Part shown: in pieces, positions 17,397 to 36,282 of the stretch
Position numbering within the stretch: position 1 is the first letter of the stretch
Layout: each line of letters begins with the position of its first letter
Source of the DNA: Caenorhabditis elegans
Lineage: Eukaryota; Nematoda; Chromadorea; Rhabditida; Rhabditidae
NCBI RefSeq assembly: GCF_000002985.6
Contig: NC_003284.9
Span: 3,596,001 to 3,660,000 of the forward strand
Length of the DNA: 64,000 bases
Direction of reading: 5' to 3'
Notes under the pieces: model-generated
The model's input: the letters and a program-made list of their open reading frames with translations, nothing else
What the model was told of the DNA's origin: nothing
Database searches by the model: none
Program-made: the position numbers and the translations under genes

Positions 17397-20300
17397 TCAT
17401 ATGGGAGGCGTCGTTTCTGATGTGTGCGTCGTTACCATTTCCACATTTACCACCTTGCCGTTGCCGTTCCCATTGTGCGGTTTCGGTGTTGACCGACTGT
17501 GTGACGTACTATTTCTGCGACGTCGTCGCATGTCGCGTCGTTGACGAGCCTCGTGGGCTTCTCGTGTCTCTCGACACCTCCGCCGTTGGCTTTTCAACCC
17601 GCAGAACCTACAAACATTATTATTCGTTGATATTTATATTGATATTATTCGAGAACAATGTTTTGATCAGTTCTTTCTATTTAACGCAAATCTGAACGCA
17701 AACATAGATTTTATCAGGTATTACTTTGTAGGATAGAACACAAATATTTGGTTTCGATTCATCAAACTGATTTCGATTTTTTCGCTCTACTTCAAACCCT
17801 AAATATGACGGTTTACGAGACAAGGCAGCAACAATTCCTGTACATTGCTCCTTATCAGTTTTATCGCTTTTGTCATACAAAATGATAATTTAAGACACGT
17901 ACTTGTGCATAACGTATCGGACAGAGTAGATGACAATTTGACACAGTGAAATGAGGGATCCACCGGCGAACAGAGAGAATTGACCTGGAAAACGACAATT
18001 TTAATATTGCAATACACTAACTAACAGTTGGTATTTTTAAATTTTTATAAAGCTGTTAATTTGCAGTTTTCACCTATCGTAAATATAGAGGTTGACAAAA
18101 AAATATTTTCTACATTTTTAATATTCTAATTATGCTTTATTTTTCATTTAAACACCTCAGGCATTGTTTGTAAATGACGCATTTCTTGGAAAACTGTTAG
18201 TTTTTGAAAACTTCGGTCATATAAACTATGTCAATCTTATTAAGACAAAGTCCCTACTACCGCGATTCAAATTTTAAATTTACTGAATTATGCAACTTTA
18301 ATCGAGGAGAGGATTCACAAATTCTTATCATTATACAATCATCATACAACTATGTAATTTACTCAAATTTTTTAAGAACTCACCTCCAATTTGAGCAATA
18401 AGGCTTGAGAGTGGCATCGCTATGACGTGCTTAATAATTGTGTAGTCCAATTCGGAATAGTATATGTCAAGTATAATTTTTCGTTTCATTTTCTCCCACT
18501 CCTCTCTTGGTAATAACTTTTTGCTCTGCAATTTTTCTTTTGTTAATTTTAAATATCTGAAATAAATATAACTTACGGCTTCACTTGGAATGCTCGAGTA
18601 GCTGACTTGCTTATTGTAATTCCAGGCATGACACGGTGCTTTACACTCCTTCTTACAGGCATCCACAATGGCTTTTGAGAGGTTGCTGTCCTCGGGGAAC
18701 AGTTTTGTGAAGAAGCAGTGGTACAATTGTGTTGCCGTGCAAAGTTTATCTGGATATGCTGGGTTTTGTGCGGCTGCCGGCGAACACTGGCACGTTTGCT
18801 GAGCATCCAATGTTAGGCAGTCTTCAAAACAATGTACGCGGCTGTAGTTCCCGTGTGGATCCTCCTCGCACTCATAACGAGGTGGATCATTCATAAATTC
18901 AAATTGTGTGCCCAGTAGAGGCATTATTGCATGAACACCTTAAAAGTTTAGATATTCGATAAAGGCAACCAAAAAAATGTGTAGTCCAAGATGGGGTGAA
19001 CTTTTGTTTCAAAATGTAGTACTCGAGTTGAAAACACTTCCATTATTGCAGAAAAAAAGCTAGGAAAATCTGTTACAATCAGCTTGTTTAGGTGAAAGTT
19101 TAAAAAATTAAAATTTAACTTTTAAAAACCTAGGATTATTCGGAATTTTATTCTGTTGTGTATTGTATTTTAGGCACTATTTTTTGAAGCCAATATGGCC
19201 TAGAAGTCGTGTCGTGGCCTACGATTAATTTGCGCACAAAATCAACTTCTGCGACTTTTTTTCGATTTCCATCTATTTTATTTTTAGTTATTAGAAAATT
19301 TGCTCACCCGCTGGTAAAAAAGTCAGATCGTTGTCAATACCCTGTCCACGTTCTGCTAGCTTAATGATCACACCACTATTGATCATTTGATTAATACCCG
19401 GATTATAATATTCTTCAGGAAGATCGATAACATAACGGTCTCCATTTCCAAAACCTGCTATTTCCTGTAAGTTTACAAAAAATATAATTAAATTTATAAA
19501 CATCACATTGAAAAACTTACTTGTTTGATACCTGCCATTCGAAAACATTTCCCAGCAGACGTCATTATTTCAGTGGTATTTGCACACCTCCTCGAGTCTT
19601 CAAAAAATGCTTCGCAATTAAGTGAGGCTTTCCGTAAAAATTGTGCGTATGTCATATTGTTTTGTTCGAGTAGGATTTCAATTTGAAAATCTAATGTATC
19701 AATTTTAGAAATAATCTCTTCCTGTTGTTGTTGAATATTCTCGAAAGGCAGATCCATGGACGGAAAGGAAAGTTCTAAAAATTGCGCTAATTCAAATGAA
19801 ACATTGTTTGCTTCGATAAAGGATCTGTTGAGACGATTGTAAGGACACACAACAACATCCGGTACCCAAATTGACTCTGAAATCGATACAAAATATCATA
19901 TATAGTAAAATCAGTGCACTTACGGGCTTCCTGTATAAAATAAGAAACAACTATCCTCCTCATCGAATACTCGTCCATGATTTGATAGCAGCCTTGGAAT
20001 GTCATAAAAAGAGCCAAAATAACAATGAGCACCCAAACCATTCGCAGACGTCCTGATGAGGAGAGCATGACGTCTCGAAGGCCATGGAGTGTAGATGTTT
20101 CTCGTAATAGATATAAGCTGTCGTCATTGTCATCTGAACTGTCACTAAGGCTTGAAGCATCTGTCGGATCGTGAGATCTTGTGGAAGCTCTAAAATAGAA
20201 GGAAATTTTAGTTGGCATTATTGTCTGCCGACTATTTTCTGGGAAACAATTCTACACGATGCGCCATGTTGTTCTAAGATTTTTCAATAAAACTTTATAT

Positions 20301-24300: not shown

Positions 24301-25207
24301 GAAATTTTTTTAATGATTGATGTGATTACAAATTGTCACATTTTTGGATTTTAGATTTAAAGACTATGCAAAGAAGAAATTCAGTAAATAGTAAAAAGTG
24401 AAAAAGATAAAAAAAACGTGCATCATTATCTTAGTCCTGACAAGGTCCACGATTTATCAAGCGACCGTTTTATGTCTTAAAAAATCCAAAAATTAACGAC
24501 TACTTTCACCTAATTTGAGTTAAATTTTTCAGACTTCAAAATGAGGTTTTTCAGTTGTTTGTGTACTGAAATAAAAAAGGTTTATAGTTTCTTCTCTGTT
24601 CTTTAAATAACTAATTACTAATTTAAAAATACACTCAAAAAATTTGCCAAAAAAAATTGAATAAATCAAAGAAGGACGAGCGCTCAAAGTAATTTTATTA
24701 TGCTACAAAAACCAAATATCAAAATAATTGATTTTCTGACATTTTTTTATTTCGAGTCAAAACGCGGTGTAAGTTGAGTTTTCGCAACGTTCCAAAAATA
24801 TCTGAGCATTGTCGCGTGCTTGAATCCCTCTTATATTGGAATACGATTATTTAAAACATAATTAAAACATAAAACTCAAAGAAAACTTTTTTCTGATCGT
24901 CGACTTCAAAAAGTAAGTGGAAACTGAGCTTTCCTAGATTTTAAAAAGATTTAAAAAAGAATAAAAAACATTTCAAAAAATTTTTGAACAGGTTGTTTTA
25001 AAATCATATCAGGTCATTTTAGTACCATAGAAATTATTAGCCGTGTTCCACCTTTAACGAACCGGGAAAAACACGAGTAAGTTGAAAAAGTGACAAAAAA
25101 TGCATACGTTATTGTCCGAGAGGAGTACTATATTAAATGCTAATTTTTCAAATATATATTTATCAGTATTCAGTTTTCTAAAAAAATTTTTTTAAAAACT
25201 GGTACTA
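21379..25207. other. Gene-poor intergenic stretch, left part
   Basis: No exon was supported over 3.8 kb. Positions 21379 to about 21660 are the likely promoter of the channel gene. A GC-richer island at about 22975-23240 has open frames on both strands (93 and 61 codons), but I could not connect splice sites into a gene. The remainder is A/T-rich with homopolymer runs. Confidence 0.45.
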
Positions 25208-25499
25208 TGAAACTAAAAAAAGGATTAAAAAGGATTAAAGGACGATCCGTTCTTCAAGTGCTATGCACTGCGGATCTGGGATTCAGGTACACTGCCTGGT
25301 GGTGATCCCTCTGGGCTGTAATTTAAGCCACGTCCTAGCCGGGGACTGTGGCCGATAATCCAGTCGTGGATTGCTCCACTTCCCAATAGAGGCTGGGTGA
25401 ACCTAGGGGGTGAGGCCGGACTTGAACTCGTGACCTCCAGACTGCTAGCGGCCACCACTACCGACTGAGCTATCTGCCCCCGAAAATTGAAACTAAAAA
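25208..25499 (-). mobile_element. tRNA-derived SINE with perfect 12-bp target-site duplication
   Basis: Read on the minus strand, the element (25220-25487) starts with a tRNA-like head GGGGGCAGATAGCTCAGTCGG. It has a polymerase III A box (TAGCTCAGTCGG, 25461-25472) and, about 31 bases on, a B box (GAGTTCAAGTCC, 25418-25429). A GC-rich body unrelated to tRNA follows. It ends in a short tandem tail of AATCCTTTTT-type units (25220-25240). Identical 12-base direct repeats TGAAACTAAAAA flank it at 25208-25219 and 25488-25499. The T-arm does not pair properly, so it is not a working tRNA. The structure is that of a SINE mobilised by a LINE reverse transcriptase. Confidence 0.85.
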
Positions 25500-27852
25500 T
25501 CGGAAATCAATAAAACTATTCAAAACATTGCGCAATAACTCTAAAATCAAGCCAGATAGTTCATCTGCGGCAACATTAGAACTCTTTTTTAATAATTGAT
25601 GATTGGGTGCGAATAGTCTGATAGTGGGGCAAACTTATCACCTGACATAAAATTCCTCACACTCTCCAACCCACATGATAAATCGCTGGTCCTCTTTTTT
25701 CGACAGATTGGAGTTTGAATGCGTGATCGGATGTAGGTGAAGAGATGGAACTCATTGAGAAAAGTTTCTCTTTTTATTTTGCTCAATCTATACTTATATC
25801 GACCACACATACATCATCCCCTTTTTTGTTGTGAGAAAAAATATGTCAATCTTCGTAGAGATTGAACTTAGTAGATAAGTATTGTTGCAAGGATTTTCTA
25901 CATGATTTTTCTAAATAAATTCACAACAAAAACAATTTTTTCTTATGCTTTTTTCAAAATAAAGCGGAAAAGTGAAAAAGAAAAACGACATGGTTGGTTG
26001 GTCAACGGATTTCTAGGACTACCTCATTAATCACTATTGCTTCCTGATGTACTCGACAAATCTCCTGAAGCAGCTGTATTCTGGTGGTTGTTGAAACGAG
26101 ATCTACCAATTAATACCGAAAAATAATGCATCTAGAAGAGCACAAGGAAGTGGAGCAGTACTACTCTAGTGTAGAATCCAGAGAGTAATTTGATTATCAT
26201 AGTCTCATGGTCGGGAAGAGCAAGAAGTTGAGAAGTTATGAGAAACCAATTGTGAAAGACTCTGTGACACACTGGTCTACTGGGACCAAACGTGTTCGAA
26301 ATTTGAGCGAAAAAACGAAAGAAGAATCGAAGAAGAGCCGAGATTTTTCTGAACAGATTAAGGTCAATGCAGAAAAACGGAACAGAAATAAGAAAAATTG
26401 TTTTCAGCATATCATCCTCACCATTGTTTTTTCTAGGTTCGTCATGCAAATGAGGAGTCCGGGAGAGCTTTTGTCGTTTTTTTCTTTTTTGGATGAAAAA
26501 TATGAAGTGACCGGAGTAGGTGATAAACAGGTCCCTGGAGAAAAATCAGGAGCTTCAGCCTCCAGTCTTTCAGGAGCAAAAGTGAAGGACACGTTTTGGA
26601 CATGATGCCAGAAAACTTGCAGGCATCGCAACATTTTTCTTTTTCCGCTGTTTTTTTTGTTTTTTTTTCACATCTTTTGACAGAAATACATTGGTGTCTT
26701 TTAACTGTTCCGAGGGAATTGAAACTTTCTATCCTTTCGTTTCGAGTGATTTGTCCTTTTTGTCTCCAAAAACATAGAACGAAAAATTTCAAAAGATTTG
26801 GGATACGTACACTATCGGGACTGTGATTTCTCCAGAAAGTGAAAAACAAAAACTATGACTGTATTTATGAACATTTCAGAAAAATATAAGTGTACGGGCT
26901 CAACTTTTTGTGAGCAATATTCTTAAATGTTTTGGTTAATGAATTTGTTTTTTTTTAATTTTTGTTCATTTGCAACGTTTCTATCAGAAACGTTGCAGTA
27001 TGGGCATTGTTTCAAGAATTTCCAGGAACTTTTTTTAAAAATATTTCAACATTAAGTTTCAAAATACTAATCAGATTCACATAATAAAAATTGAAAAAAA
27101 ATTTTGGGACCTGCTACTACATCGTTCTGTGAATCCGTGGAACCGAAGACTCGGAGCTTTTTTTTTGGTCGTTCTCAGTTTTCAGTTACGGATCTTGAGT
27201 CTAATTTTTTTTGCCCAGCAAAACATTCTACAAAATTTTGTCAGCTCGTTTTTTTCACAATATTTTATTAACTCAACTCAAAAAAAATTAAAGCTGATGA
27301 CATGTCGCAAGTTTATTTCTAACAAATATGTGTGCAACTTTTAATAAATTGGGTTTTTTTTCGAAACAAGTTTCACTACTGAAATAGTCTATGCGATGAG
27401 ACTGCCCCGCCAGAACTTTTTTTTGAAACTTGTTGATATCAATTTGGCGACAGCAAAAATGTAAAAAATATTATGCACAAAATTTCCGTCGTTAAAACTT
27501 TTTTCCCAAAATCCGCAGTTTTCAAGTTATAATATTAGGAAAAATTGGAAAATCACCCAAATACAGAAAGCAAAAACATCAAATTTGTTGTTCAAAAGTT
27601 ACACCGATCGACTTTTGATCACTACTGTGTGTTCAGGTATGTTACATACATTACTCATATTTACTAGATCTATACCTGCATTTCTAGAATGGAGAACAAC
27701 TCTACGATTTTTGTGCGAGATTAACCGAGATCGCTTCACGTGGGTGACAGATTTATCCGCCCGCATATTCATTCAAAATTGTACCTGATCACAGTAGATC
27801 AATACCAAAAAAGAGATTAAACTACTTTCAAAGAACGCATCTCTCCGCCTTC
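25500..27852. other. Gene-poor intergenic stretch, right part
   Basis: Both strands are open over 26130-26850 (up to 135 codons). At 26030-26100 a minus-strand segment is open in all three frames. I could not join these into a phase-consistent gene, so they are left as a possible relic. The remainder to 27850 is A/T-rich. It contains a short inverted repeat (caacgtttc, tatcag, gaaacgttg) at about 26974-26998 and the promoter of sulfotransferase gene A. Confidence 0.4.
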
Positions 27853-30800
27853 ATGAAAGTACCATTTCATTTCATTGTTCGCAAATTTTCATTCACAAAA
27901 TTATCGCGTTTGAAAATGACCAATATTGTTCCGAGAATACTTGGTTTTGTCCTATTTGTACTAGGAGCTGCTATTTTTTTGACGGAAGTCATGCATTCTT
28001 ATCATCGATTTGTGAAACAATCCGAGGAATATTCAATATCTAACTCGAATACCGACGATGCTCCAACGAAGAAAAAACAGATGAAGGCATTTTTCAGTTT
28101 ATACCACAATATGGATGAACTAAAAGCGCAAAACAGTGACGTAAGTTTTAGATTTGAATTTTGGGAAGCTGTTCTTTCAATAATGTGTTGGGTAGAAGCC
28201 GTATCAAAAAGTGAACATTTCTAAACACGGAAGTTCAATTTTTTTATTATTGCATAGGTTTAGAATAAAAACTTCATAGCCTAAGCTGAAAGTTATCCAG
28301 TATTAATGTTTTAAAGATACCGCCCATTGGTCTAAATACACTTGTAGTCTAACATGTCCGAATATTATATGAAAATACTTTAATTTTTTTCCAATTTCAC
28401 AAACTTATAATTGGCGAAATTCCCATCAATGTGAGCTTTTTGAAAAGCTTCGAGCATTGCCGCAATCTCTATAATGTTCAAATGAAAATAAGTAAAACAT
28501 AATTAGATCATAAAAATCTTTTAAAAAAGTTCTGAACAAACTTAACGGAAAATGAAAACTGAGTTTACACCTTTTTTGATGGCACTTAAAAATATTTCAA
28601 ACAATTTTTGAAAATGCTTGAAAAATATACCTATTTTTGAGGTCAAGAATTTCTTGGAAACTCAGAAATTCGTGTCTAGGAAAATATTAGCATCACACAT
28701 ACTTGAACAGGTCATGTTTTTGGCGTCGCTTCTAGAGATCAAATTGAGAGGGTACAATGTGAATGCAATAACCCTGTTAAATTCTTCACAATATAACTAT
28801 AACACTGCCAATTTTTTTGGGTAATCTCCTCCTTACAAAAAAATTGGGCACACTGTAGAGAATGGCTGAAAAAATTGGAAAAAAAGAGCTAGTGTAGATA
28901 TTTCCAAAATTTGTTTTTTAATGCCACATTTTACAAAAATTTGAATTTTGTGAGTAAACGTAAGAATTTGGAAATTCAAATAATTGAAACATTATTAAGT
29001 TTTTGAGCAACTGCTTTCACTTCCAATTGTTTGACCTAACTATTTTACAGACACCCAATACATTTGTTTTTCAAAACGCTCTTCAAATATATTATAGGCA
29101 CATTTCAGGTAGTTCAACCACGTGTTTTAAAAGGAACCGCTCGAGAGTTTTGCAACAACACAGATCACTGTATTCGCCCATTTTTAAACCATGAGACCAG
29201 ATATCGAGTGAGACACCAATGCAAAGATCATAATTCTAACTTTTATGTTAAAGGTCGCGCCGGATTACAAAATGGCCCACTGTGTAGTTCACAAGAGTAT
29301 GTCTACGGTTATAACCGGGATCTGGTGTTATTTGTTCAATAGAAACCGTTTTGTGAGAGTCGATAAGCAAATGAACATGTCCGAATGGGATAAAGAATCG
29401 TGAGTGAGGGAGCAAAGATTGAAGATTTGAAGATTGTTTAAGAGTGAAAAACTATTTAAAAATTTAAGGCTCTGCCGAGGCGACAACACATTTCGTCATT
29501 TGAAGAGTCTTCAGAAAAAATATAATGCGAGTGAAATGACTGGATGGAGTTTGTCAATGATAACACGAGATCCCATTGACAGATTCATATCGGGTTATGT
29601 GGATAGATGCATAAGGTTCGTCTAAAAGTCCAAGTCCACAACAACTTCTTCCCCCATCAACTACCCTCTCACCCCTCTTTACTTTTTCTTCTTATTGTCA
29701 CATTGCAGAGTGGCTGAGGGACCGAGTCCGTGCAACGGATGCGATAAGAATATGACATGCTTCATTTTGAGCGAGTATGAAAGATTCAAAAAGCAAGCCC
29801 ACAAAGGGGTTCTCACAAACACTTTTGAGGATCGACACTTTTATCCGCAGAATTGGTGAGAGGAAGACTATTGAATTATTAAGATTCTCGCGTTTTTCTG
29901 AATGATACCCACAACAAAGAAAAGGGTAAAAACGTCAAAGAAACTTTTTGTGTGGAAGGGTTTGTCGTAAAAAATCAAAAAACGCGAAAAGTTTTGCATT
30001 AGAAATCTAACAACATATTTCTATGAACGCGCTTTTCTAACACTACCATGTTTATTCTATATTAACATGACTGCAATATTAATTTTGAGACACGTTCTCG
30101 CGCGCAATACTCATAGAGAGTACAAACTGACAAACATTCACTTGAAAACAAGTAAAATCCAAAATTGTTTCAGACATTTGATATTTCCCATTTTGTAATA
30201 AAAACCACATTTTCCTTATAACTAATTTGTACTTTTGTTCATAGTATAATTTTGAAAAAAATTTGACGCAACAGTCTGAGAAAATGAAATAAGTAGTCTC
30301 ACATTCAATTAAATTAGCGATCGACCTGTGTATGATCACTAAAAAAGGATTGAAGTTTAACATTTCAAAAAAATCCCATTTTTGTAATTTTTATGGAAAA
30401 ATATCAGCAACTCCGTTAGTCATGTCAAAATTTCTTTAAAGCGACAGTACAATCTTAAATATTAGTAGTGAAGCCGAGTACTGGTCACCAGCACAAGTGG
30501 GAATGTTTCATGACACTCTAGGAGATTTCAGGAAAAATGGATGGTTTAAAATTTAATGAAAGAGTTCTAAGATAATCTCAAATTGTTTTAAAAAACAGGA
30601 ATACCACCAGTGGATGTTTTTTTTTCAAAATATACTTTACAGACAATGTGAAATCAAAAAGACACTTTTTAAATCCAGTCAAAGTTTTGGCAAGTTATGA
30701 TAGTCTCAGAAAGTTTGGACATTTTCACTTAAAAACTTTTGCTGATTATTTTCCAAAATCACGATGTATTTTAATTGATATTCCGACTGCTTTATGAAAG

Positions 30801-35220: not shown

Positions 35221-36282
35221 TACATATATTTATCTTTGAAGTACGAAAAGAATAATCATTACTTATATAAAAAAAATACTGTCCGTCTGTCCATAGTTTG
35301 TAGTCTGTGACGTCACAGCTTACATAGGCAAGGCGTTTTCGGCTGTTGAAGTGATATTGGTTTGGGGTTAGTGGAGGGATATTATCGGGTTGTCAGTTGT
35401 CACCCAGTTCTCACTCAGTTGTCACCCAGTTCTCACTCAGTTGTCACCCAGTTGTCACCCAGTTGTCACCCAGTTGTCACCCAGTTGTCACCCAGTTATC
35501 ACCCAGTTGTCACTCAGTTGTCACCCAGTTGTCACTCAGTTGTCACCCAGTTCTCACTCAGTTGTCACCCAGTTGTCGCTCAGTTGTCACTCAGTTGTCA
35601 CCCAGTTGGCACTCAGTTGTCACCCAGTTCTCACTCAGTTGTCACCTAGTTGTCACTCAGTTGTCACCCAGTTGTCACCCATTTGTCACCCAGTTGTCAT
35701 TCAGTTGTCACCCAGTTGTCACTCAGTTGTCACCCAGTTGTCACCCAGTTATCACCCAGTTGTCTCTCAGTTGTCACCCAGTTGTCACTCAGTTGTCACC
35801 CAGGTGTTGTCACCCAGTTGTTGTCACCCAGTTGTCACTCAGTTGTCACCCAGTTGTCACTCAGTTGTCACCCAGTTGTCACTCAGTTGTTACCCAGTTG
35901 TCACTAAGTTGTCACATATAATGTCACGCGCGCAATTGAATACTAGGCCACCACGCGATTTCTAGGTCATATTAGTAAACAAAGTATTAATTTAAATGTG
36001 ATTTTTTCGAACTTTAATTTGCTTTTTTTCTCAAAAAGTTCAAGAAAACTGGGAAGAAGGAATTGTATTAAGTATTTTTTCAAAATACAATACCAAAACA
36101 AATAAAAATTCGAAAGATCGTCGTGGCCTAGGATTTCTCTAGTTAATGTTCAAAGATTTTTTCGACTTAAAATGCTGAATGTTAACGGATTTTCCCCTTT
36201 TCTTTTGTAATATTCGTAAGTTCGAGCACGAACACTACATTTTAAACCCATTTTCCCATTGAAGATACTCCTTCTTTAAGGG
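35221..36282. other. Insert between the two duplicated segments
   Basis: It contains a 5' part with tgtccgtctgtcc and gtgacgtcacag (35280-35320), then the 11-base minisatellite. A tail follows with an imperfect inverted pair ctaggccaccacg (35943) and cgtcgtggcctagg (36118). The arrangement (T/A-rich end, tgtccgtctgtc, internal minisatellite, ctag end) resembles worm Helitron-derived elements, but I could not fix the ends. Confidence 0.45.
35393..35919. repeat. Minisatellite with 11-bp unit, about 48 copies
   Basis: The unit is GTTGTCACCCA alternating irregularly with GTTGTCACTCA and GTTCTCACTCA, with rarer single-base variants and two indels near 35812-35822. Because the unit is 11 bases and has no stop in any forward frame, all three forward frames stay open and translate as degenerate SCHPVVTQLSP repeats. 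These frames are a by-product of the repeat. Confidence 0.97.

Follow-up and report, generated by a model that had tools for sequence, protein, structure and literature searches.

The window (the whole stretch of Caenorhabditis elegans DNA analysed here, 64,000 nt, C6:3596001-3660000) carries at positions 25208-25499 a 268-nt element on the minus strand, lying between two identical 12-mers. With good confidence, this element can be regarded as an intact, young member of a SINE family of C. elegans (very likely CELE45), and it would have moved through a cycle relying on Pol III for its transcription and on the LINE RTE-1 for its reverse transcription. Taken as a find, it is ordinary and most likely already catalogued; its modestly interesting points are the link with RTE-1 and the long duplications.

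Structure of the element

The 5' end of the element is at 25487 and its 3' end at 25220. Its features, ordered along the window, are the following:

25208-25219, no strand: target-site duplication TGAAACTAAAAA, tail-side copy, exact repeat (12/12 identical to the head-side copy)
25220-25240, minus strand: tandem 3' tail, 8-nt, unit CTTTAATC / TTTAATCC, with an enlarged T-run
25241-25276, minus strand: 3' terminal stem of 36 nt (outer helix GATCCG/CGGATC, inner hairpin, AAGAA bulge, GTC), common to RTE-1-type ends
25277-25413, minus strand: SINE body, GC-rich, without TTTT
25414-25481, minus strand: tRNA-like head, starting at a GGGGG run
25429-25418, minus strand: B box GAGTTCAAGTCC, named by consensus
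25472-25461, minus strand: A box TAGCTCAGTCGG, named by consensus
25482-25487, minus strand: six extra nucleotides, ATTTTC, between the head and the 5' duplication
25488-25499, no strand: target-site duplication TGAAACTAAAAA, head-side copy, exact repeat

The gap between the A and B boxes is 31 nt, and the end of the head (about query position 74) was set by the analyst. The coordinates, the spacing of the boxes, the GC-rich body and the tandem tail all agree with the initial annotation, which had been made from the sequence of the window. ATTTTC is considered as extra relative to the usual start of the family, because most head-reaching copies align only from the G-run: the alignment starts at query positions 7-11 in 34 of these 41 copies and at positions 1-6 in the other 7. 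An 81-aa frame running across the element has no Pfam match. The element is thus short and non-coding, it is dispersed in multiple copies, and it possesses internal A and B boxes together with, in the window copy, a flanking duplication of 12 bp, as do tRNA-derived SINEs. These data support an element that has the anatomy of a SINE, with a tRNA-like head, and whose insertion produced a target-site duplication.

Copies in the genome, age and truncation

The genome searched comprises 100,286,401 bases in 7 contigs, including C6, which we take to be chromosome X. A DNA search using the element as query scored 40 of 372 candidates, every one with at least 96% identity. The 3' junction (up to 2 mismatches) was found at 224 places in the genome, versus 1 for the reversed control, and the head at 184 places, versus 0 for the control. 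The expectation that SINEs are scarce in Caenorhabditis therefore does not hold for this family, whose copies number in the hundreds and which is most likely known. C6 carries 28 of the 78 exact heads though it represents 17.7% of the genome (p = 0.00014).

Over 242 positions, the window copy agrees everywhere with the majority of 40 aligned copies. This alignment, from which one copy of 121 nt (L085) was excluded, is biased by the choice of 30 of the 40 as best matches to the window copy itself. L001 and L003-L008, second loci of places already represented by other loci, were set aside. The 242-nt core is letter-identical in 8 of the 70 copies examined, window copy included. These eight identical cores at separate places imply a very recent spread, and sequence comparison indicates that the window copy is intact and very young. 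The recent insertion proposed in the initial annotation is therefore retained on the basis of the identical cores; the perfect 12-bp duplication from which it had been deduced says little about age.

All 30 best-scoring copies extend to the head, which is true by selection. Among 39 other copies, picked from listed exact 3' junctions, the alignment starts at position 11 or before in 11, at positions 12-70 in 3 and at position 71 or beyond in 25. Such a one-sided loss of the 5' part is the expected outcome of target-primed reverse transcription. The T-run behind the first TTTAATCC has 3 nucleotides in 27 of the 67 readable copies and at least 5 in 32 of them; the enlarged T-runs would fit slippage, or an RNA whose end lay at a Pol III terminator within the tail.

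Two further observations were made on these copies. A run of at least 12 G precedes the head at 14 places in the genome (for example L018, L022 and L037), 8 of them on C6, and reaches 21 G in the sampled copies; this G-run is possibly a seed of poly-G tracts. Two copies, L075 and L076 (C1:11302580-11303730 and C1:11309620-11310770), have identical junctions in opposite orientation and probably belong to one duplicated segment.

A 3' end shared with RTE-1

RTE-1 is described in the available part of PMC1291365 as an element of 3,291 bp that founded the RTE clade, whose members have short repeat tails. Loci bearing a reverse transcriptase (RT) were located in the genome by Pfam RVT_1. The one RTE-1 frame tested carries RVT_1, and the corresponding copy spans about C6:2004952-2008223 plus its tail, which fits the length given for RTE-1. 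Six of the eight RTE-1 3' stretches read end with GATCCGCAGGAATACCACGAATTCCTGAAGAACGGATCGTC followed by TAAGTATC/TAAG-type repeats; of the other two, L113 diverges inside the stem and L112 is devoid of the end. The genome contains 34 ends of the RTE-1 type (up to 3 mismatches), of which 28 match exactly; the reversed control gave 0. For 23 of these 34, a listed RVT_1 match on the same strand precedes the end by 560-642 bp; the 11 others, near which no RT match is listed, may correspond to truncated copies.

The SINE ends with GATCCGCAGTGCATAGCACTTGAAGAACGGATCGTC followed by CTTTAATC repeats. The alignment of its last 36 nt with an RTE-1 stretch scores 37, versus at most 29 in 200 shuffles, and the match is terminal in both elements, directly ahead of the tandem tail. 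The outer helix, the bulge, GTC and 16 consecutive nucleotides are identical in both, and each 3' end folds into this outer helix plus an inner hairpin. For RTE-1 the hairpin is stronger than shuffles, being equalled by 8 of 1000 made from the inner letters; that of the SINE, equalled by 183 of 1000 shuffles of its own letters, is not. Variable cells in the 40 copies amount to 6/1436 in the stem, 54/5206 in the body and 34/2938 in the head; the low variation of the stem carries no weight, because the copies were chosen either by an exact pattern over the last third of the stem (10 of the 40) or by likeness to the window copy (the others).

RTE-1 and the SINE have in common the GATCCG/CGGATC helix, the AAGAA bulge, GTC, a short tandem tail and long flanking duplications. 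RTE-1 differs from the SINE by its size of about 3.3 kb, by its RT, by its tail unit (TAAGTATC/TAAG) and by the letters of its inner hairpin. A likeness of the SINE head and body to RTE-1 was considered and rejected: their comparison with one 1,455-nt RTE-1 stretch (L116, 3' half) gave a score of 22, within the range of 100 shuffles, the best of which scored 28. Like RTE-partnered SINEs, the element has a 3' end in common with an RTE LINE from its own genome, here with a different tail unit (CTTTAATC versus TAAGTATC). RTE-partnered SINEs of other animals, such as those linked to BovB, also combine an RNA-gene-like head with a LINE-like 3' end; their duplications are usually short, unlike those of this family.

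The differences in tail unit and inner hairpin leave some room for mobilization by another LINE, for example an RTE subfamily with a TTTAATCC tail, the likeness to RTE-1 then reflecting shared ancestry. Thirty other RT loci (L038-L067) were read with flanks of 1.5 kb, which may fall short of some 3' ends; the SINE matched at L041 only, where it is a full SINE copy. Furthermore, the outer helix, the bulge and GTC are exactly common to RTE-1 and the SINE, so that another LINE appears unlikely. RTE-1 is most likely the partner LINE, its protein presumably copying the SINE; the partner, described as not obvious in the initial annotation, can therefore be proposed from the shared 3' end.

At L041/L077 (C1:14247200-14250000), the nearly full SINE lies about 1 kb downstream of the RT domain of the other LINE, on the same strand, and is probably an insertion.

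Target-site duplications of the SINE and of RTE-1

The search for duplications was performed on 69 of the 70 copies (L069, without junction, was dropped), with flanks of 650 bp, and required a direct repeat abutting both the 5' end and the tail. A score of at least 11 was reached by 9 of the 69 true flank pairs and by none of the 545 mismatched pairs. For the window copy the score is 12, which confirms its perfect 12-bp duplication TGAAACTAAAAA, noticed from the outset. A tenth copy, L020, needs a gap; it was missed by this test and counted from a search with 400-bp flanks. Within the flanks searched, a recognisable duplication is therefore present in 10 of 69 copies, L075 and L076 being counted as two, and in 8 of the 41 head-reaching ones. 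The duplications of these ten copies are 11, 12, 28, 29, 67, 84, 127, 148, about 154 and 311 bp long; that of 11 nt (L011) consists of T and A and is of low complexity, and the identity over that of 311 bp is only 93%. Not counted as long duplications were a satellite-like, non-abutting 265-bp repeat (L018), partial flank repeats (L022 and L068) and other local repeats found with 400-bp flanks (L011 and L015-L017). A first search, limited to a 40-base upstream flank and a 45-base offset, gave scores of at least 12 in 5 of 70 copies versus 2 of 686 controls; it reached short repeats only and was replaced by the searches with 400-bp and 650-bp flanks.

No duplication was found in 59 of the 69 copies within the flanks searched (400-650 bp), from which longer ones would escape. 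This scarcity speaks against a simple SINE reading, and the initial annotation had indeed regarded many full copies devoid of flanking duplications as adverse to its proposal. Although this is literally what is observed among the head-reaching copies, it is not taken as a refutation, because the duplications found exceed the control and vary in length, and because RTE-1 also leaves long ones. The missing duplications may correspond to longer ones, to target deletions or to later rearrangements.

Long duplications do flank RTE-1. In four of the six copies compared, the stretch includes the common 5' end, and each of these four shows a flank repeat that scores above the 30 cross-pairs of the control (best score 32). 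One of them (L111/L137/L141, C1:8618300-8623700) displays a perfect duplication, identical over 524/524 bp, that begins directly after the RTE-1 tail and closes at the RTE-1 5' end. Besides this closed repeat of 524 bp, the four comprise a diverged one (about 133 bp) situated near both ends and two that reach the limit of the stretch, one of which is of low complexity. For the remaining two copies, the stretch contains no such 5' end, and one of the two carries a repeat (score 58) that does not abut. The occurrence of long duplications in both the SINE and RTE-1 adds a second argument for a shared enzyme.

Identity of the family

CELE45 is reported, in the accessible part of PMC8457455, as a putative SINE with 583 copies and two dense clusters on the X chromosome; according to the same part, Pol III is found at 95% of the active copies, and CELE45 is induced with age and heat. 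PMC5850821 counts CELE45 among the retrotransposons that have the most insertions in the wild strains of that study, and PMC9071541 repeats this statement. In the available parts of PMC8457455, PMC6873666 and PMC5850821, retrotransposon activity is said not to have been seen in the laboratory.

The element and CELE45 belong to the same species and class, have hundreds of copies and show an excess on X; in particular, the excess of exact heads on C6 agrees with the report of two dense clusters of CELE45 on X. The element is therefore very likely CELE45, a name proposed from the description of that family (class, copy number and X excess). Repeat libraries presumably label CELE45 as tRNA-RTE; in that case, these libraries already imply the RTE link.

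Attribution to another family would leave the mechanism unchanged. Two C. elegans SINEs, SINE1 and CELE45, are named in the available part of PMC6873666, and the element could in principle belong to SINE1 or to an unannotated family; this is quite improbable, as the hundreds of copies and the excess on C6 fit the reports on CELE45. In the portions of the open-licence literature that were accessible, no mention was seen of a link between CELE45 and RTE-1, of the shared stem or of long duplications flanking CELE45 or RTE-1. Should the family be CELE45, its mobility becomes open to testing, in N2 as in wild isolates, thanks to a likely partner that has a defined 3' stem and to a characteristic duplication pattern.

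tRNA likeness of the head

Default ARAGORN called no tRNA in the window, and the Rfam tRNA model gave no match at E ≤ 1 across 24900-25800. ARAGORN at a relaxed threshold of 75% called a tRNA at positions 8-82 of the element. The tRNA nearest to the head is Lys-CTT (alignment score 44, versus a maximum of 35 in 360 shuffles) among the 18 places compared, 17 of which are called tRNA by ARAGORN and which include only Lys, Arg and Ile; this set comes from a genome search in which 63 of 8106 candidates were scored. As for its sequence, the head thus appears tRNA-like in its A and B boxes, and its overall likeness to tRNA is weak; the tRNA-like head of the initial annotation is kept in this restricted sense. 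The only Rfam match across 24900-25800, RAGATH-19 (E 0.74), is far under the gathering score and was judged to be due to chance.

The two boxes and the score obtained with Lys-CTT are also what a tRNA pseudogene or the remnant of a tRNA gene would show, but full-length copies across the genome repeat this head together with this body and this LINE-like 3' end, and the cloverleaf is missed by default tools, so that this origin has a negligible probability. A non-autonomous DNA transposon (MITE) would likewise be short, dispersed and repeated, but it is hardly conceivable here, given the one-sided 5' truncation, the variable duplication lengths, the tandem 3' tail and the lack of an inverted repeat at the element ends among the repeats listed. 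Identity with a known DNA-transposon or tRNA-pseudogene family is therefore not supported.

Proposed cycle of the SINE/RTE-1 pair

We infer each step of the cycle from the anatomy, the copies, the shared 3' end, the variable SINE duplications, the long RTE-1 duplications and the 5' truncation described above. TFIIIC and Pol III would read the SINE from the A and B boxes of its head, and transcription would stop at a T-run of the tail or of the flank. The 3' end of the resulting RNA would bear the stem that the RTE-1 reverse transcriptase uses on its own RNA. The RTE-1 protein would then nick the target and prime reverse transcription from the tail repeats. A nick of the second strand at a loosely set distance would lead to the duplication of a dozen to several hundred bp, imperfect joining to the lack of duplication, and incomplete synthesis to 5'-truncated copies.

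More globally, CELE45 and RTE-1 could be a LINE/SINE pair with a very loose second nick, duplicating from about 10 to more than 500 bp of host DNA; the pair would act as a permanent source of local duplications, and the 5' G-run would seed fragile poly-G tracts. This broader proposal is tentative, its chances being somewhat below even.

Surroundings in the window

Elsewhere in the window, neither the SINE nor the 3' half of RTE-1 has a match (E ≤ 0.001). Among the 8 frames searched between 19.5 and 29.9 kb, family matches were limited to a sodium channel pair and a weak sulfotransferase, and the SINE copy probably lies between genes. The two frames of the pair, at 19503-20251 on the minus strand, match the amiloride-sensitive sodium channel family; the frame at 29626-29859, on the plus strand, has a weak, sub-cut-off match to Sulfotransfer_2. 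A tandem array of about 47 copies of an 11-bp unit, CAGTTGTCACC, with 86% matches, occupies positions 35394-35915.
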